A stretch of DNA of 33,753 nucleotides from a bacterium (GTDB taxonomy: Bacteria; Bacteroidota; Ignavibacteria; UBA10030): the NCBI GenBank assembly GCA_007280275.1, contig QYQB01000046.1:1-33753 (forward strand), given 5' to 3'. How positions within the stretch are numbered: the stretch's first letter is position 1; every line of letters begins with the position of its first letter. Both the position numbers and the translations under genes were made by a program. The notes beneath the pieces are model-generated. The model was not told where the DNA came from. It was given only the letters and a program-made list of their open reading frames with translations, and searched no databases. Shown in pieces: positions 1 to 11,823 of this stretch.

Positions 1-663
1 ATGCACGGCTGGCCCTAAAGTCAGCACACTGACACCGAGCACAACAAAAGCTGTGAGTGCGGCAGTCGCGACAGCAATCCAACGCTTATCAAGCAGGAAG
101 AAAACCACCAAAGCGAGGGGGAAATACTTGATTGGAATGAAGAGTCCGGCCAATACGCCACTCAGGATATCTTTCTTTTGTGTGTAGAATCGAATGCTTA
201 AAGCGAGACAGAGGGTTAATAGAAGATAGGACTGACCGAGATAGAAATTGTTGATGAGCGCGAAGCCTGAACCAAGGAGAACCAGGAAGGACTGGTAATA
301 GTCCAGGGCGCTGAGCCGGGAAAGCACCGATACCAGGGCGGCTAGGATGCCCAGATTAATCACAGTCCAGAGTGTCTTGGCTGTCCGCATGTCAAAGGAC
401 GCCAGCGGCGCCATCAGAAGTGCGGTGGGCGGAGGGAAGGGTTGGAAGATTCCCCCTTCACGACTTCCCAACATTCTCGCGCGTTGACTGAACCACTGGG
501 AGTCATAGAGCCTCTCAACGTTCTGGCTCTCGTGGACAAGCACGTACGAACTTGTATAGTAGTTCGAAAAGTCTGTCCCGATCGTGGTAAACGCCGGTAT
601 GATTCCTTTCACGAGGAGCAGAATGCTGAGAGCTACCATGAGAGACACTTTCGCAGCTTTCAT
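1..663 (-). CDS. GT87/DUF2029-type polytopic glycosyltransferase, C-terminus cut by window edge
   Basis: The minus strand is open from an ATG at 663 to the window edge (221 codons, no stop), so the ORF track misses it. The translation starts MKAAKVSLMV with a hydrophobic first helix. It continues with an extracytoplasmic loop containing TDFSNYYTSS and a PFPPPTALLMAPL motif, then several further hydrophobic helices. An acidic residue soon after the first helix and a PPP..L..PL motif are characteristic of the GT87/DUF2029 membrane glycosyltransferases, which use polyprenyl-phosphate sugars outside the membrane. The start overlaps the stop of the upstream GT9 gene (ATGA) and has a GGAGG ribosome site 7 nt upstream, so it is the last visible gene of the operon. 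Donor and acceptor cannot be read from the sequence. The family call is fairly secure, the substrate unknown. Confidence 0.8.
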   Translation of the reverse strand, partial: MKAAKVSLMVALSILLLVKGIIPAFTTIGTDFSNYYTSSYVLVHESQNVERLYDSQWFSQRARMLGSREGGIFQPFPPPTALLMAPLASFDMRTAKTLWTVINLGILAALVSVLSRLSALDYYQSFLVLLGSGFALINNFYLGQSYLLLTLCLALSIRFYTQKKDILSGVLAGLFIPIKYFPLALVVFFLLDKRWIAVATAALTAFVVLGVSVLTLGPAVH

Positions 664-1847
664 AAAGCCGCCTCCACCAACGTTTCGTTCGAAACGTCCT
701 CCCTCAAGAGAATGCGGGCTGCATCGACGACCTGCTCAACTGAAATATCTTTCATACATTTTGCATTGATAGGACACCGGAACACTTTTGCGTTGTACAT
801 GTTCAGGCACGGGCTGCACGGGAGTGATGCAAAAAGATTGATGGATTTATTGCCGAGAGGGCTGTAGAATTCAGGAGACTCGGGACCAAACAGCGAGACA
901 GTCGACAACCCGACCGCAGCCGCAATGTGCATCGGTCCGCTGTCATTTGTTATCAGGAGCCTGGATCGGGAGAAGAGAGCCATGAGCTCGTTCAGCGTCA
1001 ATTGACCGGCGAGGTTCAGAATGCGGATCGACCTGAATTTCATCTTCTCGACAATACCCGCGACGTAGTCCCTCTCCTCAGCGGATCCAATGAAACAGAA
1101 GAGGGCATCCGGATTGTCTCCCTGAAGTATGTCGATTGTGCGGGCAAAGCAGTCACCACTCCAGCGCCGGTCAAGTGAAGTCTCACCGGCATTTGGATCC
1201 ACGCAGATAATCTCTTCATGCGGAGAGGCCGCAGGCAATCCTGGAAGAGTACGAGTCGCTGCTCTATTGACGCGGATGTGGGGGAGCACAAGATCGGAGC
1301 CATCAATCCCAAGTGGAGCTACGGTGCGCAAGAATGTCCTTGACACGTGTCGATCGTTCTTGAGAGCGATCGAATCTGTGAGATTCCACGATCTCCAGCG
1401 CGTCGGTAGAGCGAAACCGATGTGTTTTCCTGGTCGTGCAATTGCCCCGATGAGCGTAGAGAACTTCGAGAAGAATTCGAGATCGAGGACGACATCGATC
1501 TTGGCCGTGAGCAGCCGGGTCGTGATGACGGCGAAGGACTTCAGGAAAGAACCGGGCGTCCGTGGATCGATGAACCATCGTTCATCAATCATTGGTATCT
1601 GTTCCAGAAGCTCGAAATTTGACGAAAAGGTGAGAAAGATGATTCTTGCTTCTGGAAACTGTATCCGCAATAGTCGAAGCGTCGGAGTTGACAGCAGGAT
1701 GCTCCCAAGTCCGAAGAATTTGATAACCAGAATTGATTCGACAGGAGCCGCAGCCCTCCGCTTGAACGTCATTCTGACAAGTCCGGAGATCCAGCACAGC
1801 GGGACCCCGAGAAATCGGTCAATGTGACGCATCAATGGGATCCTCAT
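660..1847 (-). CDS. Glycosyltransferase family 9 (heptosyltransferase-like)
   Basis: The 395-aa protein has the GT9 layout. An N-terminal Rossmann half begins VIKFFGLGSILLSTPTLRLL, equivalent to the G-D-x-I/L-L-T-P motif of ADP-heptose:LPS heptosyltransferases. A C-terminal donor-binding half carries NDSGPMHIAAAVG (about residues 301-313) and SLFGPESP. A four-cysteine patch (about 344, 347, 358, 364) near the end recurs in some GT9 subfamilies and may form a structural or metal site. The track start (1877) would overlap the upstream gene by 34 nt. The ATG at 1847 overlaps its stop as ATGA and follows an AGAGG ribosome site, so it is preferred. The enzyme probably adds a sugar to a lipid-linked or LPS-like acceptor on the cytoplasmic face. 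True heptose specificity is not established. Confidence 0.85.
   Translation of the reverse strand: MRIPLMRHIDRFLGVPLCWISGLVRMTFKRRAAAPVESILVIKFFGLGSILLSTPTLRLLRIQFPEARIIFLTFSSNFELLEQIPMIDERWFIDPRTPGSFLKSFAVITTRLLTAKIDVVLDLEFFSKFSTLIGAIARPGKHIGFALPTRWRSWNLTDSIALKNDRHVSRTFLRTVAPLGIDGSDLVLPHIRVNRAATRTLPGLPAASPHEEIICVDPNAGETSLDRRWSGDCFARTIDILQGDNPDALFCFIGSAEERDYVAGIVEKMKFRSIRILNLAGQLTLNELMALFSRSRLLITNDSGPMHIAAAVGLSTVSLFGPESPEFYSPLGNKSINLFASLPCSPCLNMYNAKVFRCPINAKCMKDISVEQVVDAARILLREDVSNETLVEAAL
671..675 (-). promoter_or_regulatory. Shine-Dalgarno GGAGG for the GT87 gene
   Basis: GGAGG on the minus strand lies 7 nt before the ATG at 663 and inside the end of the GT9 gene. It fixes the start of a gene that the ORF track does not list. 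Confidence 0.7.
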
Positions 1848-2653
1848 CGCAGCCTCTTTCGGAGGACCACCACACAATGATCACCGATGGACCGGAGGAC
1901 AGGGAGACGGCAAAGCTTGTCATCAATAGCCTCCAGCCCGGCTGTGAGTGCTGGGAAGCGCTTTGCAGTCTTCCAGGCATGGGGTGGAGGGCTGAACACG
2001 TTCAGGCTAAATGTCTCTATCACCTCAAATCCGGCTGAGAGCGCCCGAGCCACCTGTCCGGGAGAGTAGTAGTAGACTATGAAGCCGATGCCATTCAGTT
2101 GAGTTTCCCTTCCGGTTCGCTTCAGTCTTCGGAACGCTTTTGTGAACTCTCCCCGAATCGCGAAGGAGCAGGTCTCCCACAAGGAGAACGATGGCATCAC
2201 GACTGCGATGAAATACCCGCCTGGCTTGAGCCGGTCTGCAACTTGTCTTCCCACTCTTGTGAGGTCCAGCGTGCAATTCAGCCCGCCGAAGTTTGAGAGG
2301 ACCAGATCAAATTGATTCGCTGCGATATGGTCGAGGTTCTCATAGGATGCTACAAGGAACTGAGCATTTGTGAGCCCTTGAGATTTCCGGTCGGCTTCTG
2401 CTATCATCCGCGACGAAAGGTCAACCGCCACAATTGAAAAACCCTTTTGTGCAAGATAGATCCCGTCTGTCCCGGTCCCGCAATTGATATCCAAAATCCT
2501 TGCCGGAGGACGCACATAGAAATCAATCGTTGAATAGAGTATATGGCGAAGTCTCTCGATAATTGCATTGTGCCCGAACACTGCGTCGTATTGCCCGGCC
2601 AGGGAATCGAAGGCTGATGCAACATCGGTATGCTCGTGTGCCTGTTGTGCCAT
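1844..2653 (-). CDS. Class I SAM-dependent methyltransferase
   Basis: The 269-aa protein carries a class I methyltransferase fold. Motif I is ILDINCGTGTDGIYLA (about residues 53-68), the acidic end of beta-2 is VAVDLSSRMI, and LVLSNFGGLNC corresponds to motif IV. The opening (AFDSLAGQYDAVFG) resembles small-molecule methyltransferases of the UbiE/Methyltransf_11 group. The track start at 2746 runs 30 residues into the upstream radical SAM gene and adds a Cys/Arg-rich stretch without family similarity. The ATG at 2653, 4 nt after that gene's stop, is the likelier start. Its position between radical SAM and glycosyltransferase genes suggests modification of a lipid or sugar intermediate. The substrate is unknown. 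Confidence 0.85.
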   Translation of the reverse strand: MAQQAHEHTDVASAFDSLAGQYDAVFGHNAIIERLRHILYSTIDFYVRPPARILDINCGTGTDGIYLAQKGFSIVAVDLSSRMIAEADRKSQGLTNAQFLVASYENLDHIAANQFDLVLSNFGGLNCTLDLTRVGRQVADRLKPGGYFIAVVMPSFSLWETCSFAIRGEFTKAFRRLKRTGRETQLNGIGFIVYYYSPGQVARALSAGFEVIETFSLNVFSPPPHAWKTAKRFPALTAGLEAIDDKLCRLPVLRSIGDHCVVVLRKRLR

Positions 2654-2657
2654 GATT

Positions 2658-4049
2658 CTAGCTCTTCGAATATCTCGTCGACAGCATACCGAGATGAGCA
2701 ACTTTTGCTTTCGCAAATGCCGACACCCTGTCCAGCAAGCGCCCATTCTTCCTGATTTTCAGCGAGTGAAAAAGGACTTCATTCGTCAATCTCCGCTGAG
2801 CAAACCAGTAGAAGAGGTCAGAATGTCTTCCTCGAATCCGCACATCTCTCTCAGTTCGTTCTTCCCAGGGCTCAAGTGTCTCAACGCGTTCTTGGTTTTC
2901 GCGGTAGTACGCCGTTCCTTTGATGGGATAAGCAACCGTGGTAAGAAACGTGTTTGCCTGCGTCACTTTCAGATGGTCGATCGTTGCATCGATGTCCTCT
3001 ATCGTTTCTCCATCATATCCAAGCATCACAAAGAGGCCGGCCTCGATCCCATGACGCTGGGCGCGTCGGGTGGCCTCTTGGATCTCCGTGACAGTGACTC
3101 CGCGAGACATTGCGTCGAGCACGCGTTGTGAACCGCTCTCCGACCCAAACCAGATGCGATAGCAACCCAGGTTCGCCATCACCTCCATGACCTGATCATT
3201 CAAGCGATCGGCCCGCGAGATGCACTCGAATGGAATGCGCACATTGCGTCGATTCATCTCGGCCGCGTACTCGTGCAACCATTTGTGGTTGATTGTGAAG
3301 ACATCGTCGGCAATCCACAGCATATCAGGTTTGTAGCGGCCAACAACAAGCTCTATTTCATTCACCACGTTCTCAGGGCTTCGCCGCCGGTGAGAAAAGC
3401 CATAGACTCCGTGGCTGCACCATTTACATGTGTACGGACATCCGCGTGCCGTAATCAATGAAAGCGATCCTCGTTCGTGATGTTCGCGCCAGGTCGACAC
3501 ATAGCGATCAATGTCGATCGCTTCCCGATCAGGAAACGGGAGCGTATCGAGATCCTGGATCAATGGTCGCGGGGGAGTGTGAAGGATAGTACCTGATTCA
3601 TCCCTGAAAGCAATCCCGTGAACATCGTGGAGGCGATGGACACCAGCTCTCACAATACTGTGCATGACAGCTTCAGTCGTAATTTCTCCCTCGCCAATGA
3701 TGATTACATCAGCCCCCGAGTCAAGGAATTCTTTGGCGTAGGAAGATGGCTCCGGCCCGCCAAGCAGGACTGTGGACCCCATGGATTTGCACAGTCGAAT
3801 CATTGCCAACACGTTCAGCTTCGTCATCAGGTTGCAATAGATCCCGACGATCGAAGGGCGGTGTTCCTTGAGATAACCCGTGAAGTCTTCCATACGGCGA
3901 AACGTCGAGTCGAACACGCTGACGCTTATCCCTTTGGACTTCAGGTACGACGACAGATACAGGATCCCCAACGGCGGATACGGCTTCATGACGCGTTTCT
4001 CGTGTTCATCCTTCTCGAGGAAGTAACCATGGGTCAGAAGCAATTCCAT
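2658..4049 (-). CDS. B12-binding-type radical SAM protein (copy 2 of a tandem pair)
   Basis: The 463-aa protein starts with a B12-binding-like Rossmann domain, including the KPYPPLGILYLSSYL signature at about residues 22-36. A radical SAM core follows, with CPYTCKWC (Cys204, Cys208, Cys211), the CxxxCxxC ligands of the [4Fe-4S] cluster. Downstream conserved stretches are WIADDVF, ISRADRL and WFGSESGSQRVLDAM. The architecture is that of the large BchE/HpnJ/P-methylase-like group, which carries out methylations, cyclisations or ring contractions on lipids and natural products. Its ATG overlaps the upstream stop as TGATG, so the pair is translationally coupled. It aligns by eye along its whole length with the next gene, which indicates an old tandem duplication. 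The reaction is not identifiable. Confidence 0.88.
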   Translation of the reverse strand: MELLLTHGYFLEKDEHEKRVMKPYPPLGILYLSSYLKSKGISVSVFDSTFRRMEDFTGYLKEHRPSIVGIYCNLMTKLNVLAMIRLCKSMGSTVLLGGPEPSSYAKEFLDSGADVIIIGEGEITTEAVMHSIVRAGVHRLHDVHGIAFRDESGTILHTPPRPLIQDLDTLPFPDREAIDIDRYVSTWREHHERGSLSLITARGCPYTCKWCSHGVYGFSHRRRSPENVVNEIELVVGRYKPDMLWIADDVFTINHKWLHEYAAEMNRRNVRIPFECISRADRLNDQVMEVMANLGCYRIWFGSESGSQRVLDAMSRGVTVTEIQEATRRAQRHGIEAGLFVMLGYDGETIEDIDATIDHLKVTQANTFLTTVAYPIKGTAYYRENQERVETLEPWEERTERDVRIRGRHSDLFYWFAQRRLTNEVLFHSLKIRKNGRLLDRVSAFAKAKVAHLGMLSTRYSKS

Positions 4050-5545
4050 CAGCGTGTGCTCGGGTCTTTCTTTTCTTGATGTTCCTGCGATGCGAGAGCA
4101 TTGAGCCTGGAATAGAGGCTGGGTGCCGTAAGCACGTGAAATGCGGATTTCGCGAGCCGTTCAAGATCGGCTTTGTCCAGTGAGAGCGGCCTGGCAATCG
4201 CTTTTCTCAGGATGTTGCTCGCCTCCCAGATTCTGAACTTCTTGTGCGTGAATCGGTGAAGCAGGCGATAGAAATCCGGAGTGTAGGTTCCCCGAAACAT
4301 CAGTGCAAGGTCCCCGCTGTCGATCCAGTTCTGCTTCTGTTTGAGCTCCGCCTTCACTGTCTCAAAAAATGTCGTGCCGGGCAGTGGATAGGAAACTGAA
4401 ATTCCAATTTCATCAGGCATACACTCCCGCACCATTCGAAGCGTTCTCTCGATGTCATCGCGGGTTTCGCCGGGATAACCGTACTGCAGAAAAAACCCAA
4501 CCCGAATGTTGTTCTGGTGAAGGAGGGAGGTGGCCTCATAGATTTGTTCCACCGTTGTTCCCTTCTCCATTGAGTCCAGGACCTTTTGCGAGCCGGATTC
4601 GGCCCCAATCCAGACGGTATGGCATCCTGCCTTTCTGAGGTGGCGGATGTTGTCTTCCTTCAAGAGCAGGTCGGCTCTTGAAAGGCACTTGAACGGAATC
4701 GCTGCATTTCGGGCGTTGACGAGCTCATCGAAGCGGCTGATCCAGCCAGGCTTCAGCCCAAAGATATCGTCAGCAAACCATATGTGATCCGGATTTGCTG
4801 TTTCCCTCAGAGCCAGCATTTCTTCTACAACATTCTCAGGGCTTCGGCTGTGATACACCTGCCCATAGATCGGCTTTGCACACCAATTGCAGTGGAATGG
4901 GCAGCCCCGTGTCGTCACCATATTGAGTGAGAAATACCCATGCTTCTGCTTCCAGACCTGCCGGTATTGCTCAAGTTCCACAAGGTCCCACGCCGGAAAG
5001 GGGAGGAGGTCCAGGTTCTCGAAAATTTTGCGCGGGGCTGTCCAAACGACCTCGCTGCCTTTCATGAAGGTCAGACCCTGGATTGACTCGACGGGAGCGA
5101 CTGGATTTCGCAGAAGGTTCTCCATCAATTGCCGGAGCGTTTCCTCGGCTTCCCCGCAGATCACATAGTCCGCGCCATGCTCAAAATACTTTTCGATGTG
5201 ATCGGAAGCGTCGGAACTGAAGATGACGACTTTACACCCCCGCAACTTCGCGATTTTCGTCATTGCAAACGCCGCTTCACGCATTCGCGTCAAACACATT
5301 TTTGTAAGGTAGCTGAACTGGTCGTCGTAGATGACCACAACGCCCGGACGATGATGGGCGAGCGCCTCTCCAATGTCCCCTTCATGGTGGGCAAGCATAA
5401 CGTCGTGCAACGCTACCGAGAACCCCGCGCCTCGGAGATAACTCGCTGCGTAGAGCGTCCCCAGCGGAGGATAAGGCATCATGGCCCGAAGTTCTTTCGG
5501 GTCAAAATGCAGGAAGTATGAATGCGTGAGAAGGATCTGTGCCAT
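4049..5545 (-). CDS. B12-binding-type radical SAM protein (copy 1 of a tandem pair)
   Basis: The 498-aa paralogue of the preceding entry has an N-terminal B12-binding-like domain with MPYPPLGTLYAASYL. The radical SAM motif CPFHCNWC lies at about residues 215-222, and the conserved stretches WFADDIF, LSRADLL and WIGAESGSQKVLDSM follow. The C-terminal 100 residues differ most from copy 2, which suggests a different substrate. Where copy 2 has LLGGPEPS in the B12 domain, this copy has IFSSDASDH. The track start is a TTG at 5569 that overlaps the upstream stop. The ATG at 5545 aligns exactly with the paralogue's N-terminus (MAQILLTHSYF against MELLLTHGYF) and is chosen. The TTG remains possible because it would form a TTGA overlap. 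Confidence 0.88.
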   Translation of the reverse strand: MAQILLTHSYFLHFDPKELRAMMPYPPLGTLYAASYLRGAGFSVALHDVMLAHHEGDIGEALAHHRPGVVVIYDDQFSYLTKMCLTRMREAAFAMTKIAKLRGCKVVIFSSDASDHIEKYFEHGADYVICGEAEETLRQLMENLLRNPVAPVESIQGLTFMKGSEVVWTAPRKIFENLDLLPFPAWDLVELEQYRQVWKQKHGYFSLNMVTTRGCPFHCNWCAKPIYGQVYHSRSPENVVEEMLALRETANPDHIWFADDIFGLKPGWISRFDELVNARNAAIPFKCLSRADLLLKEDNIRHLRKAGCHTVWIGAESGSQKVLDSMEKGTTVEQIYEATSLLHQNNIRVGFFLQYGYPGETRDDIERTLRMVRECMPDEIGISVSYPLPGTTFFETVKAELKQKQNWIDSGDLALMFRGTYTPDFYRLLHRFTHKKFRIWEASNILRKAIARPLSLDKADLERLAKSAFHVLTAPSLYSRLNALASQEHQEKKDPSTR

Positions 5546-5565
5546 AACTCGTCGTGAATTCGCTC

Positions 5566-6528
5566 TCAATTGCGTTGTTCGAAGCCAGAGATACCATAGT
5601 GCCGGAGCCTGTATGCATACTGTGCGAGGACCTTCTGCTGGAAATCTTCACCGTACGCGGTCGAGATGCAAGAGTCGCAACGAAACTTATGATTGCGCTC
5701 CTCTTCGCTCAGATGAGCGTAGCGCCGCTGCCACAGGTGCCTCCAACGGCCGAGAAGCCAGGTGTCCAGCTTGTCTCCAGCCTGCGTCGGCAGGAACAAT
5801 TCGACGACCCGTTGAACAATGCTTCTCGAATCCTTTCCCTCAACACAGCGGGTTGATCCCATATTCCACTGAGGGAAGAATTCCCTGATCCACTGATTTG
5901 CTTTGATGTACTCCATATACTGTGGATGATTCCAAAGAGGCTTGAGCGTTGCGATCTCGGTCGCAGAATAGATATTTCTCAACTCAACCGTCAAGTAGTC
6001 CTCAGTGATGAAGTGGTTCAGGCAAAAGTATTTCTTACTGTTGAAAAGGAAGGCTTTCTTGAAGAGAATCAACAGAGACCTGCTGATCCAGAGTCTGCGT
6101 CTTTTAGTGACGATCACAAAATCGATATCGCTGTTCTTGCTAGCGACCCCCTTCGAGAGTTCGCCTGAGAGCATCACAGCGCGCACGAAAGGGAACATGC
6201 GTATGAAGCGTGCCACTGCCATCGCGGTCTTTATTCTGCTTCCGGCCAGGCGCTCTTTCTCGGACCTTGTCTCAACGCATGATTCGGTTGCAGAATGAAG
6301 GAAATAGTACCCGTTCTTCGATTTCACTATCCCTTGAAGAGCCTTTGATTCCAGCACTCTCACAAGCCGATCGAGAGTGATCGCAGTGGAACTGCAGAAT
6401 GAAAATACCTCGGCGGCTGTCAGGGGATGATCGAAGATGTTGAAGTAGAGGAGGACTCTGAGAATGCTCTGCTCATGAGGCGACAATCCGGGGATGGATT
6501 GAGGTGCGTGGACAATTGGTGCGTTCAT
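5566..6528 (-). CDS. Winged-helix plus nucleotidyltransferase-fold protein, first gene of the minus operon
   Basis: The 320-aa protein has an N-terminal helical region resembling a winged helix (LSPHEQSILRVLLYFNIFDHPLTAAEVF). A pol-beta-type nucleotidyltransferase segment follows (VMLSGELSKGV, then SDIDFVIVT at about residues 133-141). The DxD metal pair is intact (about Asp134 and Asp136), but the usual Gly-Ser of the fingerprint reads Gly-Glu, so catalysis is uncertain. The C-terminal half is basic and aromatic and I do not recognise it. Proteins of this kind occur beside envelope polysaccharide genes in related bacteria, but no reaction is known to me. A GTG at 6588 would lengthen it by 20 residues; the ATG at 6528 has a GGAG 10 nt upstream and is preferred. 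Confidence 0.65.
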   Translation of the reverse strand: MNAPIVHAPQSIPGLSPHEQSILRVLLYFNIFDHPLTAAEVFSFCSSTAITLDRLVRVLESKALQGIVKSKNGYYFLHSATESCVETRSEKERLAGSRIKTAMAVARFIRMFPFVRAVMLSGELSKGVASKNSDIDFVIVTKRRRLWISRSLLILFKKAFLFNSKKYFCLNHFITEDYLTVELRNIYSATEIATLKPLWNHPQYMEYIKANQWIREFFPQWNMGSTRCVEGKDSRSIVQRVVELFLPTQAGDKLDTWLLGRWRHLWQRRYAHLSEEERNHKFRCDSCISTAYGEDFQQKVLAQYAYRLRHYGISGFEQRN

Positions 6529-7090
6529 TACTTCGGGCTCCGCGGGGGATGCAATCGACTCTCGCTTATGATGAACAGCGCGTTTCACCGAAAAGCAAGT
6601 CCAGGTGCCGAATCAAGGGGTCAAGAAAAGGGAGACACCGTCTGATCCTGTCAGCTTTTCGAGCAACGTCGTCGGAGGAATTAGTCTCGATATGAGTGTC
6701 CTGCAATCCTGGTGCCAGGAGAATATTCCAAGGGATCTACGTTTCAGCTCCATTTTCTTCACACCTGAAACCCGGAATCCGCTGGAACTGTGGAGGACAC
6801 GCAACATGCGTAGGGGAGTGTGAGGACCTCATTCCTCGCGATTGTGTATCCGTCGACCAGGACCTTTTTTCAATAGACCTCTTCTTTCCAGGCCATCCAG
6901 TTCCCGCAATCTATGACTTCATTAAGATAATGCTGATTCATAACAAGACGGGCTTCCGAGTCCGGCAGCGCAATGCTGCGAAAAGTCTGCGGATTTCCGT
7001 GCTTGCTTTTCCAATCCATTCAAGGTCAGGCCCTGATCGCTGATGTTGTAACTCTGGCGAAGTTTGGCTATATTTTTTGAAGTTATTCAA
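6529..7090. other. Divergent intergenic region without a convincing gene
   Basis: This 562-bp gap separates the minus-strand envelope operon from the plus-strand PASTA-rpe-nagA operon. The listed ORFs (for example 6613-6807 minus and 6696-7043 plus) have no recognisable motif, hydrophobic pattern or ribosome site and look like chance frames. The only clear element is the promoter next to the PASTA gene. A small GCAGC/GCTGC stem (6965-6979) is visible. No tRNA or riboswitch fold was recognised. The promoter of the minus operon must lie here but has no obvious consensus. Confidence 0.5.
7046..7074 (+). promoter_or_regulatory. Candidate promoter of the PASTA-rpe-nagA operon
   Basis: TTGTAA (7046-7051) and TATATT (7069-7074) are separated by 17 nt. 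The -10 runs into a T-tract ending in G, close to the Bacteroidota TAnnTTTG element. The predicted transcript start (about 7081) is only about 10 nt before the ATG at 7091, so the leader would be very short. Confidence 0.45.
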
Positions 7091-7858
7091 ATGACAGCAT
7101 GGAAGAACATACGGCTTAAGGACCTTCGAACACCTGCAATCATACTCGGGGTATTCCTGATCCTCCTCTACATCTTTAACAACATCGTAATGCCTCGGTA
7201 CGTTCAGCAGGGAAAGACCACAACGGTGCCAAATGTCGTAGGCAAGACGCTTGACGAAGCTGTCACAATACTTGCCGGGTCAGGCCTGCCGGGAAAGAAA
7301 GCAGACGTTCGCAACGACAAGCAATACCCCGAGGGAACGGTCGTGGTTCAGAATCCGCCGGCTGGTGCTGAAGTCAAGTTCGGACGCGGAGTGTATCTGA
7401 CCGTCAGTGGCGGAGAGGCTCTCGTGGCAGTTCCGTCACTTCGTGGACGTTCTCTGCGCGATGCAACGTTTGCCCTGGAACGGTTTACTCTTGTGATGGG
7501 ATCGGCGACATATCAGGTCTCTGAAGAGTATCCGCAGGGCACGATTATCGACCAGGATACACCTGAGAATTCGAAGGTTCCAGGCGGAAGAGTTATCAAT
7601 GTCACCGTCAGCCAGGGGAAGAGCGCGGATCAGGTGCCTGTTCCTGATGTAACCAAGAAGACGTTCTCTGAAGCTGAGCGCATTCTGATTCAAGCGGGAT
7701 TTCGCGTTGGCAACATCACGTATCAGGTCAATGCGGATCTCCTGCCCAACACCGTCCTCGAGCAATCCCCCAAAGCCGGAGAGTCGACCCCTGCCGGACA
7801 AGCCGTCGACCTCGTCGTTGCGCAAAAGGGGGAGAAGCCAAACGATCTTCAGAACTAG
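7091..7858 (+). CDS. Membrane-anchored protein with three PASTA domains
   Basis: The 255-aa protein has a short basic N-terminus and one transmembrane helix (about residues 15-35, PAIILGVFLILLYIF). Three PASTA repeats follow at about residues 44-108, 112-176 and 182-245. Each opens with a VP.V/L..-type strand and carries the P.G.V..Q.P..G pattern. PASTA domains bind muropeptides or beta-lactams in other proteins, but here there is no kinase or transpeptidase domain. The topology places the repeats outside the cytoplasmic membrane. The track start is a TTG at 7064 inside the promoter; the ATG at 7091 is the likely start. It ends 14 nt before rpe, in the same orientation. A role in sensing or binding cell wall is inferred from the domains only. 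Confidence 0.88.
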   Translation: MTAWKNIRLKDLRTPAIILGVFLILLYIFNNIVMPRYVQQGKTTTVPNVVGKTLDEAVTILAGSGLPGKKADVRNDKQYPEGTVVVQNPPAGAEVKFGRGVYLTVSGGEALVAVPSLRGRSLRDATFALERFTLVMGSATYQVSEEYPQGTIIDQDTPENSKVPGGRVINVTVSQGKSADQVPVPDVTKKTFSEAERILIQAGFRVGNITYQVNADLLPNTVLEQSPKAGESTPAGQAVDLVVAQKGEKPNDLQN

Positions 7859-7872
7859 TCCAGACCAGACCT

Positions 7873-8553
7873 ATGATCTACATCGCCCCCTCTGTTCTCG
7901 CCGCTGATTTTTCCCATCTCGCAGATCAGGTGGCACAAGCCGAAGCCGGCGGAGCCGATTGGATACACCTTGACGTGATGGACGGGCAGTTCGTCCCCAA
8001 CATTACCATTGGTCCTTCGATCATCAACGCAGTCCGTCAATCGACCAAACTGCCTCTGGACACTCACTTGATGATAGTGAACCCCGATAAGCACCTCGAA
8101 ACGTTTCGCAGTGCCGGGGCCGATATTATCACAGTTCATCAGGAAGCGTGCACTCATCTGCACCGGACTATCACGCAGATCAAAAATCTTGGCGCAAAGG
8201 CGGGTGTATCAATCAATCCGGCGACGCCATGTTCGACTTTGGAGGAGATCATCTCGGAGGTCGATCTCATCCTCATCATGTCAGTCAATCCCGGATTTGG
8301 CGGGCAAACGTTCATCGAAGGGACGCTGCGGAAACTTCGTGAAGTGAAGTCGATGATCGAAGAGTCCCGCCGTGACATCAGGCTTGAGGTCGATGGAGGC
8401 ATTGACACGGTCACAGGACCTCGTGTGGTGCAAGCGGGCGCCGATGTGCTTGTGGCTGGTACCTCAATCTTCAGAACATCTGACATCAAGAAGGCGATCG
8501 CGGAGCTGCGATCAATCATACAAACAGGAGCAGAGAAGAAGCCGCTCACATGA
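7873..8553 (+). CDS. rpe: Ribulose-phosphate 3-epimerase
   Basis: The 226-aa TIM-barrel enzyme interconverts ribulose 5-phosphate and xylulose 5-phosphate in the pentose phosphate pathway. Family signatures are complete: IAPSVLAADFSHL at the N-terminus, the metal and catalytic strand HLDVMDGQFVPN, LPLDTHLMI with the second histidine, MSVNPGFGGQ for phosphate binding, and LEVDGGI with the second catalytic aspartate. Length is normal for the family. The start is the first ATG, and the N-terminus aligns with known Rpe proteins. Its stop overlaps the nagA start as ATGA, so the two are translationally coupled. Confidence 0.97.
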   Translation: MIYIAPSVLAADFSHLADQVAQAEAGGADWIHLDVMDGQFVPNITIGPSIINAVRQSTKLPLDTHLMIVNPDKHLETFRSAGADIITVHQEACTHLHRTITQIKNLGAKAGVSINPATPCSTLEEIISEVDLILIMSVNPGFGGQTFIEGTLRKLREVKSMIEESRRDIRLEVDGGIDTVTGPRVVQAGADVLVAGTSIFRTSDIKKAIAELRSIIQTGAEKKPLT

Positions 8554-9722
8554 CCTTTGCCATTCGAAATGTCGATATCGTAACGCCGTTCCGAATCATT
8601 CCAAATGGATCGATTCTCGTTGAAGGGAAGAAGATCGCCGCCATAGGAAAAACCTCGGAGGTTGCGATTCCTTCGGGAACAAAGACCTTTGATCTCGACG
8701 GGATGGTGCTGACTCCCGGCTACATCGATCTCCTTGTCCATGGGGGCGGTGGCTTCGGATTCGCTGATATGAGCATAGAGGCCGTTGAGCACATTTCCCA
8801 GCACTTCTTTCAACACGGCACGACAGGGCTCCTTGCATCGCTCTACAGCAAGCCAGAAAAAGATATGCTGGCCGACGTAACGAGAATTGCCGAATTCTGC
8901 AGCGCTTCGAAGAACTCGAATGTCTGGGGAATGCACTTGGAAGGGCCATTCATCAACAAGAAGTGGCACGGTGCGATGTTGGTGGACTACCTCTGGCAGC
9001 CAAGTGTCGAGGGGTGGAAAAAGCTTCACGCAGCCGGCAATGGATATATTCGCCTTATGACCCTCGCTCCGGAGCTTCCAGGGATGGAGGACGTTATGAG
9101 GGCGGCTGCCAAGAATGGCGTCGTTCTGTCGATCGGACACTCAGCTGCAACCTTTGAAGAGGTCCTCGTTGCGATCGATAACGGAGCGGCCCATATAACA
9201 CACATGTTCAATGCAATGACCCCGTTTCATCATCGCCAGCCGAGCGTCACAGTGGCGGCACTGCTTCAGAATGAGCTCAAGGTGGAGTTGATCGCTGATG
9301 GATTTCACGTTCATCCCGCCGTGATGAAGCTGATTTACAATATTAAGGGAGATGGGGGAATCGTCCTGATCACGGATGCAATTCGAGCCAGCGGCATGCC
9401 GGATGGTGAATATGCATTTATGGACCAAAAAATCATTGTCAGACAGAAGAAGGCCTACCTGGAGAATGGAACCCTGGCGGGAAGTACACTGACGATGGAA
9501 CAGGCCGTCAAAAACATGGTCGAACTCGTTGGAGTCCCCCTGACCGATGCGGTTCGGATGGCCTCACTCAACGGCGCCAAGGTTCTGGGTCTCGAGCACA
9601 AGAAGGGCATCCTCGCCGTCGGCAAAGACGCAGACCTCGTCGTCCTGAACAAGGGCTTCGACGTTCAAATGACGATCTACGAAGGAACCATCAAGCACAA
9701 CGCCTTCACGGCTGCCGCCTGA
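8550..9722 (+). CDS. nagA: N-acetylglucosamine-6-phosphate deacetylase
   Basis: The 390-aa amidohydrolase removes the acetyl group from GlcNAc-6-phosphate in amino-sugar and peptidoglycan recycling. Visible signatures are the first barrel strand PGYIDLLVHGGGG, the metal glutamate in HLEGPFINKKWHG, the metal histidines in SIGHSAATFEEV and HITHMFNAMTPFHHR, and the catalytic aspartate in LITDAIRASGMPDG. A small composite beta-sandwich domain is formed by both termini (the C-terminus has GKDADLVVLN). It overlaps rpe by 4 nt. The expected partner nagB is not in the window. The combination with a PASTA protein fits cell-wall turnover, but this is an inference from position. Confidence 0.95.
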   Translation: MTFAIRNVDIVTPFRIIPNGSILVEGKKIAAIGKTSEVAIPSGTKTFDLDGMVLTPGYIDLLVHGGGGFGFADMSIEAVEHISQHFFQHGTTGLLASLYSKPEKDMLADVTRIAEFCSASKNSNVWGMHLEGPFINKKWHGAMLVDYLWQPSVEGWKKLHAAGNGYIRLMTLAPELPGMEDVMRAAAKNGVVLSIGHSAATFEEVLVAIDNGAAHITHMFNAMTPFHHRQPSVTVAALLQNELKVELIADGFHVHPAVMKLIYNIKGDGGIVLITDAIRASGMPDGEYAFMDQKIIVRQKKAYLENGTLAGSTLTMEQAVKNMVELVGVPLTDAVRMASLNGAKVLGLEHKKGILAVGKDADLVVLNKGFDVQMTIYEGTIKHNAFTAAA

Positions 9723-9749
9723 AGCTCCATCTGATTAGAAGAGTTTTTC

Positions 9750-9784
9750 AAAAGCCCCGTCGCAGTTGCCTCGGGGCTTTTTTT
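9750..9784 (+). terminator. Rho-independent terminator after nagA
   Basis: AAAAGCCCCG (9750-9759) pairs perfectly with CGGGGCTTTT (9772-9781) around a 12-nt loop. The strand continues into a run of seven T. It closes the PASTA-rpe-nagA operon. Confidence 0.92.
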
Positions 9785-9797
9785 GTGCAGAAAAGAC

Positions 9798-9828
9798 TTG
9801 ACATGAAGAATCCCGTACCTTATATTTG
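9798..9828 (+). promoter_or_regulatory. Strong promoter of the lrp-like/glnA unit
   Basis: A perfect -35 TTGACA (9798-9803) lies 17 nt before TATATT (9821-9826). The -10 extends to TATATTTG, an exact match to the Bacteroidota TAnnTTTG element. It immediately follows the nagA terminator and gives a leader of about 65 nt before the ATG at 9901. Confidence 0.8.
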
Positions 9829-9833
9829 TAGGT

Positions 9834-9848
9834 CATAATGACATTATG
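9834..9848. promoter_or_regulatory. 15-bp palindrome at the predicted transcription start, candidate operator
   Basis: CATAATG, one base, CATTATG: a perfect 7-1-7 inverted repeat placed 6-20 nt after the -10. A weaker CTTA..TAAG repeat (9850-9863) follows directly. Lrp/AsnC operators are about 15 bp and palindromic, so autoregulation by the downstream regulator is plausible but unproven. Confidence 0.5.
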
Positions 9849-9900
9849 TCTTAGTTTATTAAGTATTCCCTCATAATCCCTAATAAATTACTGTATCACC

Positions 9901-10359
9901 ATGCTTGACGACATCGACCACAAGATTCTTGACATTATCCAAAAAGAGGGCCGTACGAGAAGGAACGACCTCGCCGATCGCGTTGGCCTCTCTCTCCCTT
10001 CGGTCAGCGAACGCCTCAGAAAGCTCGAGGATGCGGGCATCATCACCGGCTATTTTGCCAAGCTGAATCACCACAAACTTGGGAAGGACATTACGGCGTT
10101 CGTACTCGCCACCGTCGACTCATCGAAACACTACAGCTCGTTTGTCGAACATGTGGATGGAACAGACGATATCCTCGAATGCCACGCAATTACCGGTGAA
10201 GGGACGCATCTTTTGAAGATCCGGACGGAGAATACCGCGAGTCTGGAGAAACTCCTCGCGAAGATCCAATCGTGGACCGGCGTTGTGAAAACGACCTCAA
10301 GTGTTGTCCTCTCCAGCCCAAAGGAGACGAGTGCCATAAAAATTCACTATCACAAATAA
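9901..10359 (+). CDS. Lrp/AsnC family transcriptional regulator
   Basis: The 152-aa protein has the standard two-part structure. The N-terminal helix-turn-helix reads DDIDHKILDIIQKEGR, then NDLADRVGLSLPSVSERLRKLEDAGIITGY (about residues 3-50). The C-terminal RAM ligand-binding and oligomerisation domain includes the ECHAITGEGTHLLKIRTE beta-strand region. Length matches the family. It lies 27 nt before glnA on the same strand and probably shares its transcript. This suggests control of nitrogen assimilation by an amino-acid effector, perhaps glutamine, though the ligand cannot be read. A palindrome at its promoter suggests autoregulation. Confidence 0.92.
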   Translation: MLDDIDHKILDIIQKEGRTRRNDLADRVGLSLPSVSERLRKLEDAGIITGYFAKLNHHKLGKDITAFVLATVDSSKHYSSFVEHVDGTDDILECHAITGEGTHLLKIRTENTASLEKLLAKIQSWTGVVKTTSSVVLSSPKETSAIKIHYHK

Positions 10360-10386
10360 CATATCGTTTACCCAACGAGGAGTCTC

Positions 10387-11823
10387 ATGGCCACAAAAAC
10401 AAAATCGACGTCAGGAGTGGAGCACGTTCTGAAGTTGATCAAGGAACACTCCATCAGAATCATCGACCTCAAGTTCACAGATCTGATAGGGCAATGGCAG
10501 CATTTTTCTGTTACGGCTACGGAGTTTTCTGCCGAGATTTTCGAACAAGGCATTGGATTCGACGGCTCGAGCATCCGTGGTTTTCAAAAGATCCACGAAA
10601 GCGATATGCTTCTTTTTCCTGATCCGGCATCCGCATTTTTGGACCCCTTTACTGCGGTGCCGACGCTCAGCCTGGTGTGCGACATTGCTGATCCCATAAC
10701 TCACGAGAGTTATTCCCGGGATCCGAGGCATATTGCGAAAAAGGCAGAAGCCTATCTGAAAACCACTGGACTCGCCGATGTGGCTTTATTCGGACCGGAA
10801 CCCGAGTTCTTCATCCTCGACCATGTCCGGTTTGATCAGTCCCATCAATTCGGATACTACTATCTCGATTCCGAAGAAGGATCCTGGAACAGCGGTGCGA
10901 ACGAGGAACAGAATCTCGGCCACAAGCCACGACTAAAGGAAGGATACTTCCCGACATCTCCCATCGACAGTTTGCAGGATCTCCGGTCCGCCATGGCGTT
11001 GACGCTCGAAGCCGTCGGAATTCCGATTGAAGTTCACCACCACGAAGTCGCCACAGCCGGGCAAACCGAAATCGATATGCGGCGCGACACATTGGTCAAA
11101 ATGGCAGACAATTATCTGCTCTTCAAATACGTTACCAAGAACGTCGCCAAAAAACACGGCAAAACCGTGACGTTCATGCCAAAACCGATTTTTGGTGACA
11201 ATGGCTCTGGAATGCACGTCCACCAAAGTCTCTGGAAGGGAGGGAAACCCCTCTTCGCTGGCAATGGCTATGCCGGCTTGAGTGAAATGGCCCTGTACTA
11301 CATCGGCGGACTCCTCAAGCACGCACCTGCTCTTTGCGCCTTCACCAATCCGACAACGAACTCCTACAAGCGCCTTGTACCCGGCTTCGAAGCACCCGTG
11401 AACCTCGCCTACTCCCAGCGTAATCGTTCTGCCTCGGTCCGTATCCCGATGTACTCTTCCAACCCGAAATCAAAACGAATTGAGTTTCGCTGTCCGGATC
11501 CGACATGCAACCCCTACATCGGGTTCGCGGCATTGTTGATGGCAGGCCTCGATGGCATCATCCACAAAATCGATCCGGGAAAGCCACTGGACAAGGACAT
11601 TTACGACATGACGCGAGAGCAATTGCGCGACGTTCCTTCCACGCCCGGCTCGCTCGCCGAGTCGCTGGAAGCGTTACAGAACGACCACGAGTTCCTCTTA
11701 CGGGGCGATGTGTTCTCCGAGGATGTCATCAGTACATGGATCGAATACAAAACGGCGAAAGAAATTCAGCCGATGCAGCTGCGGCCGCATCCGTATGAGT
11801 TCTTGTTGTACTACGATGCCTGA
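10387..11823 (+). CDS. glnA: Type I glutamine synthetase
   Basis: The 478-aa enzyme makes glutamine from glutamate, ammonia and ATP. Family motifs appear in order: FDGSSIRGF in the N-terminal beta-grasp domain, the metal glutamates in [24 protein letters not shown], the ATP/glutamate segment [20 protein letters not shown], and [22 protein letters not shown]. The C-terminal DIYDM motif carries a tyrosine (about Tyr406) at the site adenylylated in GSI-beta enzymes. Length matches the dodecameric GSI class. A GAGGAG ribosome site lies 4 nt before the ATG. Upstream is an Lrp-type regulator in the same unit. Adenylylation is possible from the motif, but no adenylyltransferase or PII gene is in the window. 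Confidence 0.97.

Follow-up and report, generated by a model that had tools for sequence, protein, structure and literature searches.

A nucleotidyltransferase, radical SAM and methyltransferase gene module in a putative surface-glycan operon of an Ignavibacteria genome

The contig QYQB01000046.1 from an Ignavibacteria genome (assembly GCA_007280275.1), all 33,753 nucleotides of which form the window analyzed here (G000:C85), carries at its left end a minus-strand operon with genes for a nucleotidyltransferase (NTase), two radical S-adenosylmethionine (SAM) proteins (rSAM1 and rSAM2), a class I methyltransferase (MT), and two glycosyltransferases of the GT9 and GT87 families. The core of this gene set, NTase-rSAM1-MT, often together with rSAM2, is conserved from Ignavibacteria to Flavobacteriia, and the glycosyltransferases are exchangeable. 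Judged by the genes that surround the core in related genomes, the operon on balance probably directs the synthesis of a surface glycan and includes a conserved module that tailors one of its sugars. With a third radical SAM protein (rSAM3) and a second methyltransferase (MT8) encoded outside the window, three apparently ancient, separately conserved radical SAM families are tied to one NTase and one or two methyltransferases across the phylum. To our knowledge, the substrates of most B12-type radical SAM enzymes are not known. The genes in the window are as follows.

NTase: 5566..6528, minus strand; predicted winged-helix N-terminus, polymerase-beta/MNT-type domain (GSx10DxD) and C-terminal helices; used as marker for the module
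rSAM1: 4049..5545, minus strand; PF04055 and PF02310, N-terminal Rossmann (B12-type) domain, invariant CX3CX2C, GG motif absent
rSAM2: 2658..4049, minus strand; PF04055 and PF02310, intact GGP cobalamin-domain motif; probably an ancient paralogue of rSAM1
MT: 1844..2653, minus strand; class I SAM-dependent methyltransferase, PF13649 (Methyltransf_25), motifs LNCGTG ... SNFGGLNC
GT9: 660..1847, minus strand; glycosyltransferase of the heptosyltransferase superfamily, PF01075 (91.7 bits); exchangeable part
GT87: 1..663, minus strand; N-terminal 221 residues of a membrane glycosyltransferase, PF09594 (80.7 bits); truncated by the contig end

Conservation and extent of the gene set

Co-occurrence was determined in an order-level sample of 98 genomes and a phylum sample of 396 genomes. 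In addition, the best 80 loci with flanks were collected from the first 590 pattern matches, NTase relatives being sought within the Bacteroidota. Most carriers were metagenome-assembled genomes, and genes without a Pfam scan were labeled by local similarity or by reading the sequence. NTase was found in 47 of the 98 genomes of the order (two of the matches weak) and rSAM1 (E ≤ 1e-100) in 41, all of which also carry NTase. Only four genomes with a strong NTase gave no rSAM1 match, namely G022 (rSAM1 in fragments), G072 and G073 (both with NTase at a contig end), and G037 (partial). About 15 of the 41 genomes with rSAM1 also had rSAM2, and MT occurred in 43 genomes of the order, a few of them without NTase. 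In the phylum sample, 34/396 genomes contained NTase. The loci with flanks include those of Aquimarina, Tenacibaculum, Roseivirga, and Acidiluteibacter, names that indicate culture and make the question of the substrate experimentally testable.

Gene adjacency was counted in 86 different NTase loci whose downstream sequence extended for 1.7 kb or more. In 79 of them, rSAM1 followed at no more than 1.3 kb in the same orientation, and in most of these loci the NTase is only 31 to 50% identical to that of the window; thus, the NTase-rSAM1 linkage is far beyond chance. MT was located within 6.5 kb downstream of NTase in 60 and rSAM2 in 36 of the 86 loci, and an rSAM3-like gene occurred anywhere in the locus in 26. 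The usual order is NTase-rSAM1-rSAM2-MT-GT9-GT87-rSAM3-MT8 in loci of the Ignavibacteria type and rSAM3-MT8-NTase-rSAM1-MT-rSAM2 in those of the Bacteroidia type; the recurrence of the same families in shuffled order argues for one pathway. In agreement, pairwise distances correlated for NTase-rSAM1 (r = 0.78), NTase-rSAM2 (0.83), rSAM1-rSAM2 (0.87), and NTase-MT (0.67; Mantel p = 0.001 each), with shared species history accounting for part of these values. GT9 and GT87 are replaced elsewhere by GT4, GT2, or GT39-type genes.

Some loci depart from this arrangement. Four of the Bacteroidales type contain NTase but no radical SAM gene (L113, L115, L125, L139); in the first three, a distant MT relative and a Wzy_C family protein adjoin NTase or lie near it, and in L139 both are encoded on the opposite strand. 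Two further loci without rSAM1 (L084 and L095) represent second NTase copies in genomes G048 and G040, the former of which is surrounded, as judged by eye, by cupredoxin-like, cytochrome-like, and two-component system genes.

The junctions were read directly from the DNA. All six genes run from 6528 to 1 with overlaps of 1 to 4 bp or gaps of 4 to 20 bp. NTase extends from ATG 6528-6526 to TGA 5568-5566 and is separated by 20 bp from rSAM1, given the conserved rSAM1 ATG at 5545-5543. The longest rSAM1 open reading frame opens at TTG 5569 and would overlap NTase; the start was placed at ATG 5545 because relatives align from there. rSAM1 and rSAM2 overlap by 1 bp (TGATG at 4051-4047), and the rSAM2 stop (TAG 2660-2658) is followed after 4 bp by the conserved MT start, ATG 2653; the longest MT reading frame opens at 2746, and the family profile alignment begins at about 2641. 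MT/GT9 and GT9/GT87 overlap by 4 bp each (ATGA at 1847-1844 and 663-660). The GT9 score for PF01075 far exceeds the cut-off of 22 bits; its nearest NCBIfam model is heptosyltransferase III (122.9 bits versus a cut-off of 170.2).

As the window spans the entire contig, the gene set is truncated at position 1 and does not represent a complete six-gene operon. Locus L038 of a genome of the same genus (G050) contains all six genes, with a full-length GT87 of 412 amino acids, and continues with rSAM3 (489 amino acids; PF02310 and PF04055) and MT8 and then, by eye, with genes resembling those for cytidine deaminase, thymidine kinase, and purine nucleoside phosphorylase. In the genome of the window itself, base 1 of contig C104 lies inside rSAM3 (residues 319-489, 89% identity to L038), and MT8 and the same downstream genes follow. 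On this basis, rSAM3 and MT8 are assigned to the operon as genes beyond the contig end, with a presumed joint between C85 and C104.

These results bear on an earlier note that had been made from the letters of the window alone. Its six same-strand genes with overlaps or tiny gaps were recovered at the same coordinates, Pfam confirmed two B12-binding-type radical SAM proteins, a class I methyltransferase, GT9, and GT87, and its proposals to look for synteny and to extend the sequence to the left of position 1 yielded the 79/86 adjacency and the additional rSAM3 and MT8 genes. The implied fixed unit of six genes did not hold, since only NTase-rSAM1-MT forms the core, rSAM2 is often missing, the glycosyltransferases are swapped, and two genes lie beyond the contig.

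The nucleotidyltransferase and the radical SAM proteins

The window NTase gave zero Pfam matches at the default threshold, but its relatives showed weak matches to PF01909 (NTP_transf_2, 23 of 31) and PF18765 (Polbeta, 20 of 31), in line with the nucleotidyltransferase-like first protein of the earlier note. No significant sequence match was obtained in the PDB. According to the AlphaFold2 model (predicted local distance difference test score, pLDDT, 90.5) and Foldseek, the protein probably consists of a polymerase-beta/MNT-type domain preceded by a winged helix and followed by C-terminal helices. Among the Foldseek matches, all of which stayed above E = 0.001, were MntA (top) and AadA/ANT adenylyltransferases for the NTase part and IclR-type regulators for the N-terminus. 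The nucleotidyltransferase domain with its GSx10DxD signature is common to MntA, ANT/AadA, and the window protein, whereas the winged helix and the C-terminal helices are additions of the latter. Across 61 NTase sequences, Gly142, Asp154, and Asp156 do not vary; position 143 is occupied by Ser in 39 of them and mostly by Glu or Asp in the others. From these motifs, NTase activity is plausible.

rSAM1 and rSAM2 are 36% identical. In a tree of 74 sequences, obtained by a quick method and containing long branches, rSAM1, rSAM2, and rSAM3 formed three groups with rSAM1 and rSAM2 as sisters (support of the rSAM2 clade, 99); on this tree, the split appears to predate the divergence of the sampled classes. 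Pfam matches and cysteines assign both proteins to the class B architecture (radical SAM core, CX3CX2C, and N-terminal Rossmann domain), for rSAM1 together with the fold; the three cysteines are conserved without exception in the 42 rSAM1 and 26 rSAM2 sequences compared. The rSAM1 model (pLDDT 86.1) matched the folds of MgmA, AprD4, OxsB, TsrM, TokK, and CysS. In one locus (L207:246-13998, G012:C169), six radical SAM genes are clustered: besides rSAM1, rSAM2, and rSAM3, these are a further rSAM3-like gene, one of the SPASM type, and one left unplaced.

The two sister proteins differ in the Rossmann double glycine that reads ILGGP in CysS, VAGGP in TokK, and VVGGP in MgmA. It is present in all 36 rSAM2 and all 31 rSAM3-like sequences but in none of 96 rSAM1 sequences, which have in this region an invariant Ser-Asp (119-120) along with Asp82, Asp83, Cys92, and Asp123. 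Lacking a motif that rSAM2 and rSAM3 keep, rSAM1 may not use B12. A B12-like Rossmann fold that works without cobalamin has a precedent in AprD4. However, OxsB, a cobalamin-binding protein according to its PDB title, reads GN at this position, so the loss of GG is no proof of a loss of cobalamin. The earlier description of a B12-binding pair accordingly fits rSAM2 and is doubtful for rSAM1; the two provide a natural comparison between a kept and a lost cobalamin-domain motif.

None of the three radical SAM proteins approached the NCBIfam equivalog cut-offs of characterized subgroups. The best scores of rSAM1 and rSAM2 were those for BchE (TIGR02026; 143.9 and 149.1 bits, cut-off 481.35); other scores were those for HpnJ (121.6 and 128.5, cut-off 577.6), the ladderane-type lipid B12 radical SAM model (TIGR04072; 112.8 and 114.9, cut-off 360), HpnR (84.6 and 99.5, cut-off 650), and the AprD4 family (NF033070; 66.9 and 60.0, cut-off 500). 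The best PDB match of rSAM1 in both sequence and fold was MgmA (9ccb; methyl-coenzyme M reductase glutamine C-methylase; E 1.5e-25 by profile), but rSAM1 scored only 103.6 bits against the cut-off of 360 and lacks the GGP of this enzyme, which acts on a protein. The second-best fold match (E 5.9e-19) was AprD4, a radical SAM diol dehydratase acting on the sugar paromamine, whose family model rSAM1 likewise misses by far.

The BchE scores, weaker ones to methylases of ribosomally synthesized and post-translationally modified peptides, and the fold of MgmA could mean that the radical SAM and MT genes modify a protein, a peptide, or a tetrapyrrole-like cofactor and merely lie beside glycan genes. 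We consider this quite unlikely: no recurrent precursor peptide or target gene was noticed, the BchE scores are less than a third of the cut-off, and Wzy, Wzz, and glycosyltransferase neighbors recur across classes. The earlier note had also allowed for a membrane lipid, in which case the radical SAM pair would modify an isoprenoid or fatty lipid (hopanoid-, ladderane-, or glycerol dialkyl glycerol tetraether-like) and the glycosyltransferases would build its head group. rSAM1 and rSAM2 do score against HpnJ, HpnR, and the ladderane model, and GT87 enzymes use lipid-linked donors; yet the scores stay far below the cut-offs, squalene-hopene cyclase (PF13249) was detected in 0 of the 98 genomes of the order (Bacillus subtilis control positive), and no lipid-biosynthesis gene recurs among the annotated neighbors. 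A lipid product is therefore very improbable, and the hopanoid, ladderane, and BchE assignments, the first of which the note had named as a possible known subgroup for the pair, were ruled out. A phage or virus origin was likewise dismissed, as NTase has no relative in IMG/VR and rSAM1 only distant ones.

Glycan context and proposed pathway

In the window, GT9 and GT87 are the sole glycan-assembly genes before the contig ends; more are found in related loci. A Wzy_C O-antigen ligase/polymerase is encoded in L113, L123, L129, and L151, Wzz in L113, and NusG in L122; other loci contain further glycosyltransferase genes (GT4, GT2, and GT39-like), ABC exporters, a Wzx-type flippase, a polysaccharide deacetylase, and a sulfotransferase. 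Directly downstream of the core, the Flavobacteriaceae locus L156 encodes a HAD phosphatase, an epimerase, a PfkB plus cytidylyltransferase-like fusion, an SIS_2 isomerase, and a match to the local GT9 profile; these five would fit GmhB, HldD, HldE, and GmhA of the ADP-heptose pathway plus a heptosyltransferase. The Wzy/WaaL, Wzz, Wzx, exporter, and ADP-heptose genes point to surface-glycan tailoring, as do the Wzy_C genes in the Bacteroidales-type loci that lack radical SAM genes; of the glycan or membrane lipid proposed earlier, it is the modified glycan that finds support. GT9 and, in L156, ADP-heptose-type genes are shared with the GT9 heptosyltransferase operons of the lipopolysaccharide core, but we know of no heptose operon with NTase or B12-type radical SAM genes. 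HldE co-occurrence was discarded as a discriminator because a PfkB-type kinase matched in 85 of the 98 genomes, mostly with the kinase half only. A literature search found no description of an NTase-radical SAM-MT gene set, in keeping with the earlier statement that no named pathway is known to have this exact gene order.

From the observed gene content, conservation, co-occurrence, glycan context, and catalytic motifs, we infer the following substrate, step order, and reaction types. GT9 and GT87, or other glycosyltransferases elsewhere, would assemble a lipid-linked oligosaccharide, one sugar of which is modified by the module. The MNT/ANT-like NTase would transfer a nucleotidyl group to a hydroxyl of the sugar or sugar phosphate as a handle or activating group. 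rSAM1 would then start radical chemistry at a sugar carbon (dehydration, epimerization, or C-C chemistry), possibly without cobalamin, and rSAM2 and rSAM3 would catalyze a cobalamin-dependent C-methylation or a related reaction. MT and MT8 would add O- or N-methyl groups, and the finished unit would be exported and then polymerized or ligated by Wzx/ABC and Wzy/WaaL-type proteins. Sugar-acting enzymes occur among the fold matches of both NTase (aminoglycoside adenylyltransferases) and rSAM1 (AprD4).

A nucleotidyltransferase is also paired with a B12-type radical SAM enzyme in the Fom1-Fom3-FomD system of fosfomycin biosynthesis, where the nucleotidylated intermediate is the radical SAM substrate and Fom3 methylates cytidylyl-2-hydroxyethylphosphonate (PMC8158854). 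The likeness is one of analogy only, as the loci described here contain one to three radical SAM genes in a glycan setting. The fosfomycin system also uses an unrelated nucleotidyltransferase fold and a phosphonate substrate. Taken to its full extent, the scheme would be a new pathway in which a polymerase-beta-fold NTase transiently nucleotidylates a sugar and successive radical SAM enzymes, of which one would have given up cobalamin and one or two would still depend on it, rebuild the carbon skeleton to an undescribed branched or deoxygenated surface sugar; this combination as a whole is a speculative proposal that we hold to be unlikely.

Several observations weigh against a sugar-tailoring module in a surface-glycan operon or limit the evidence for it. 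NTase and rSAM1 stand alone, without recognized glycan genes, in L099, L100, L104, and L114, and redox genes (c-type cytochromes, YceI-like, and cupredoxin-like; partly by eye) lie nearby in some genomes. Glycan-type genes were enriched in same-strand runs with NTase (76/261 versus 59/804), but the profiles of this test were seeded from the same loci, so that the biased result supports the assignment and does not prove it. With respect to the NTase, none of the Foldseek matches reached E ≤ 0.001, and strand 189-195, the expected site of the third carboxylate, carries an invariant Asn191 (an invariant Glu211 is nearby in sequence), which makes catalysis uncertain. The winged helix could mean a regulator.

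In that case, NTase would be a regulator or toxin-antitoxin-like modifier controlling the operon, and only the radical SAM and MT proteins would be biosynthetic. The IclR-like matches of the winged helix, the MntA antitoxin as top match, Asn191, and the usual position of NTase as first core gene are consistent with this role. We nevertheless regard it as unlikely, since GSx10DxD and many further residues are invariant in the 61 sequences, NTase strictly co-occurs and co-evolves with rSAM1, no HEPN-type partner was seen, and NTase is not always first, following rSAM3-MT8 in L103, L119, L130, and L145.

Two further features were noted in related loci. The MT of L097 (12466-14166), L048, and L050 carries a fused C-terminal domain that resembles glycosyltransferase family 29 (sialyltransferase) below the Pfam threshold; in L097, this domain scored 22.1 bits against a cut-off of 23 and gave no PDB match, and it is kept as a hint only. 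A membrane-anchored calcineurin-like phosphoesterase (PF00149) recurs in the operon (L044:14105-15340, L059, L094, L206, L207, L208, L211) and could remove the nucleotidyl or a phosphate group.

Genes flanking the module

In one Ignavibacteria group (L086, L089, L093, L099, L100, L104, L110), NTase-rSAM1 lies mostly beside a Crp/Fnr-type regulator, often with an iron-sulfur repair (RIC)-like protein nearby (both by eye); in L093 and L110, rSAM2-MT is found a few kilobases away. YceI-like and outer-membrane beta-barrel-like proteins are encoded in varied order upstream (L132, L147, L148, L156) or downstream (L103, L153) of the core, and in the Flavobacteriaceae among these loci a c-type cytochrome-like lipoprotein also recurs beside it.

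In the window, a block divergent from the operon (7064-11823) encodes, by eye, a PASTA-domain protein, ribulose-phosphate 3-epimerase, an N-acetylglucosamine-6-phosphate deacetylase-like protein, an AsnC/Lrp-type regulator, and glutamine synthetase. This PASTA-to-glutamine synthetase block is retained across several families of the order (L038-L043, L047, L054, L060); G057 (L211), where NTase and rSAM1 are gone, still has it on the flank of MT and the phosphoesterase.

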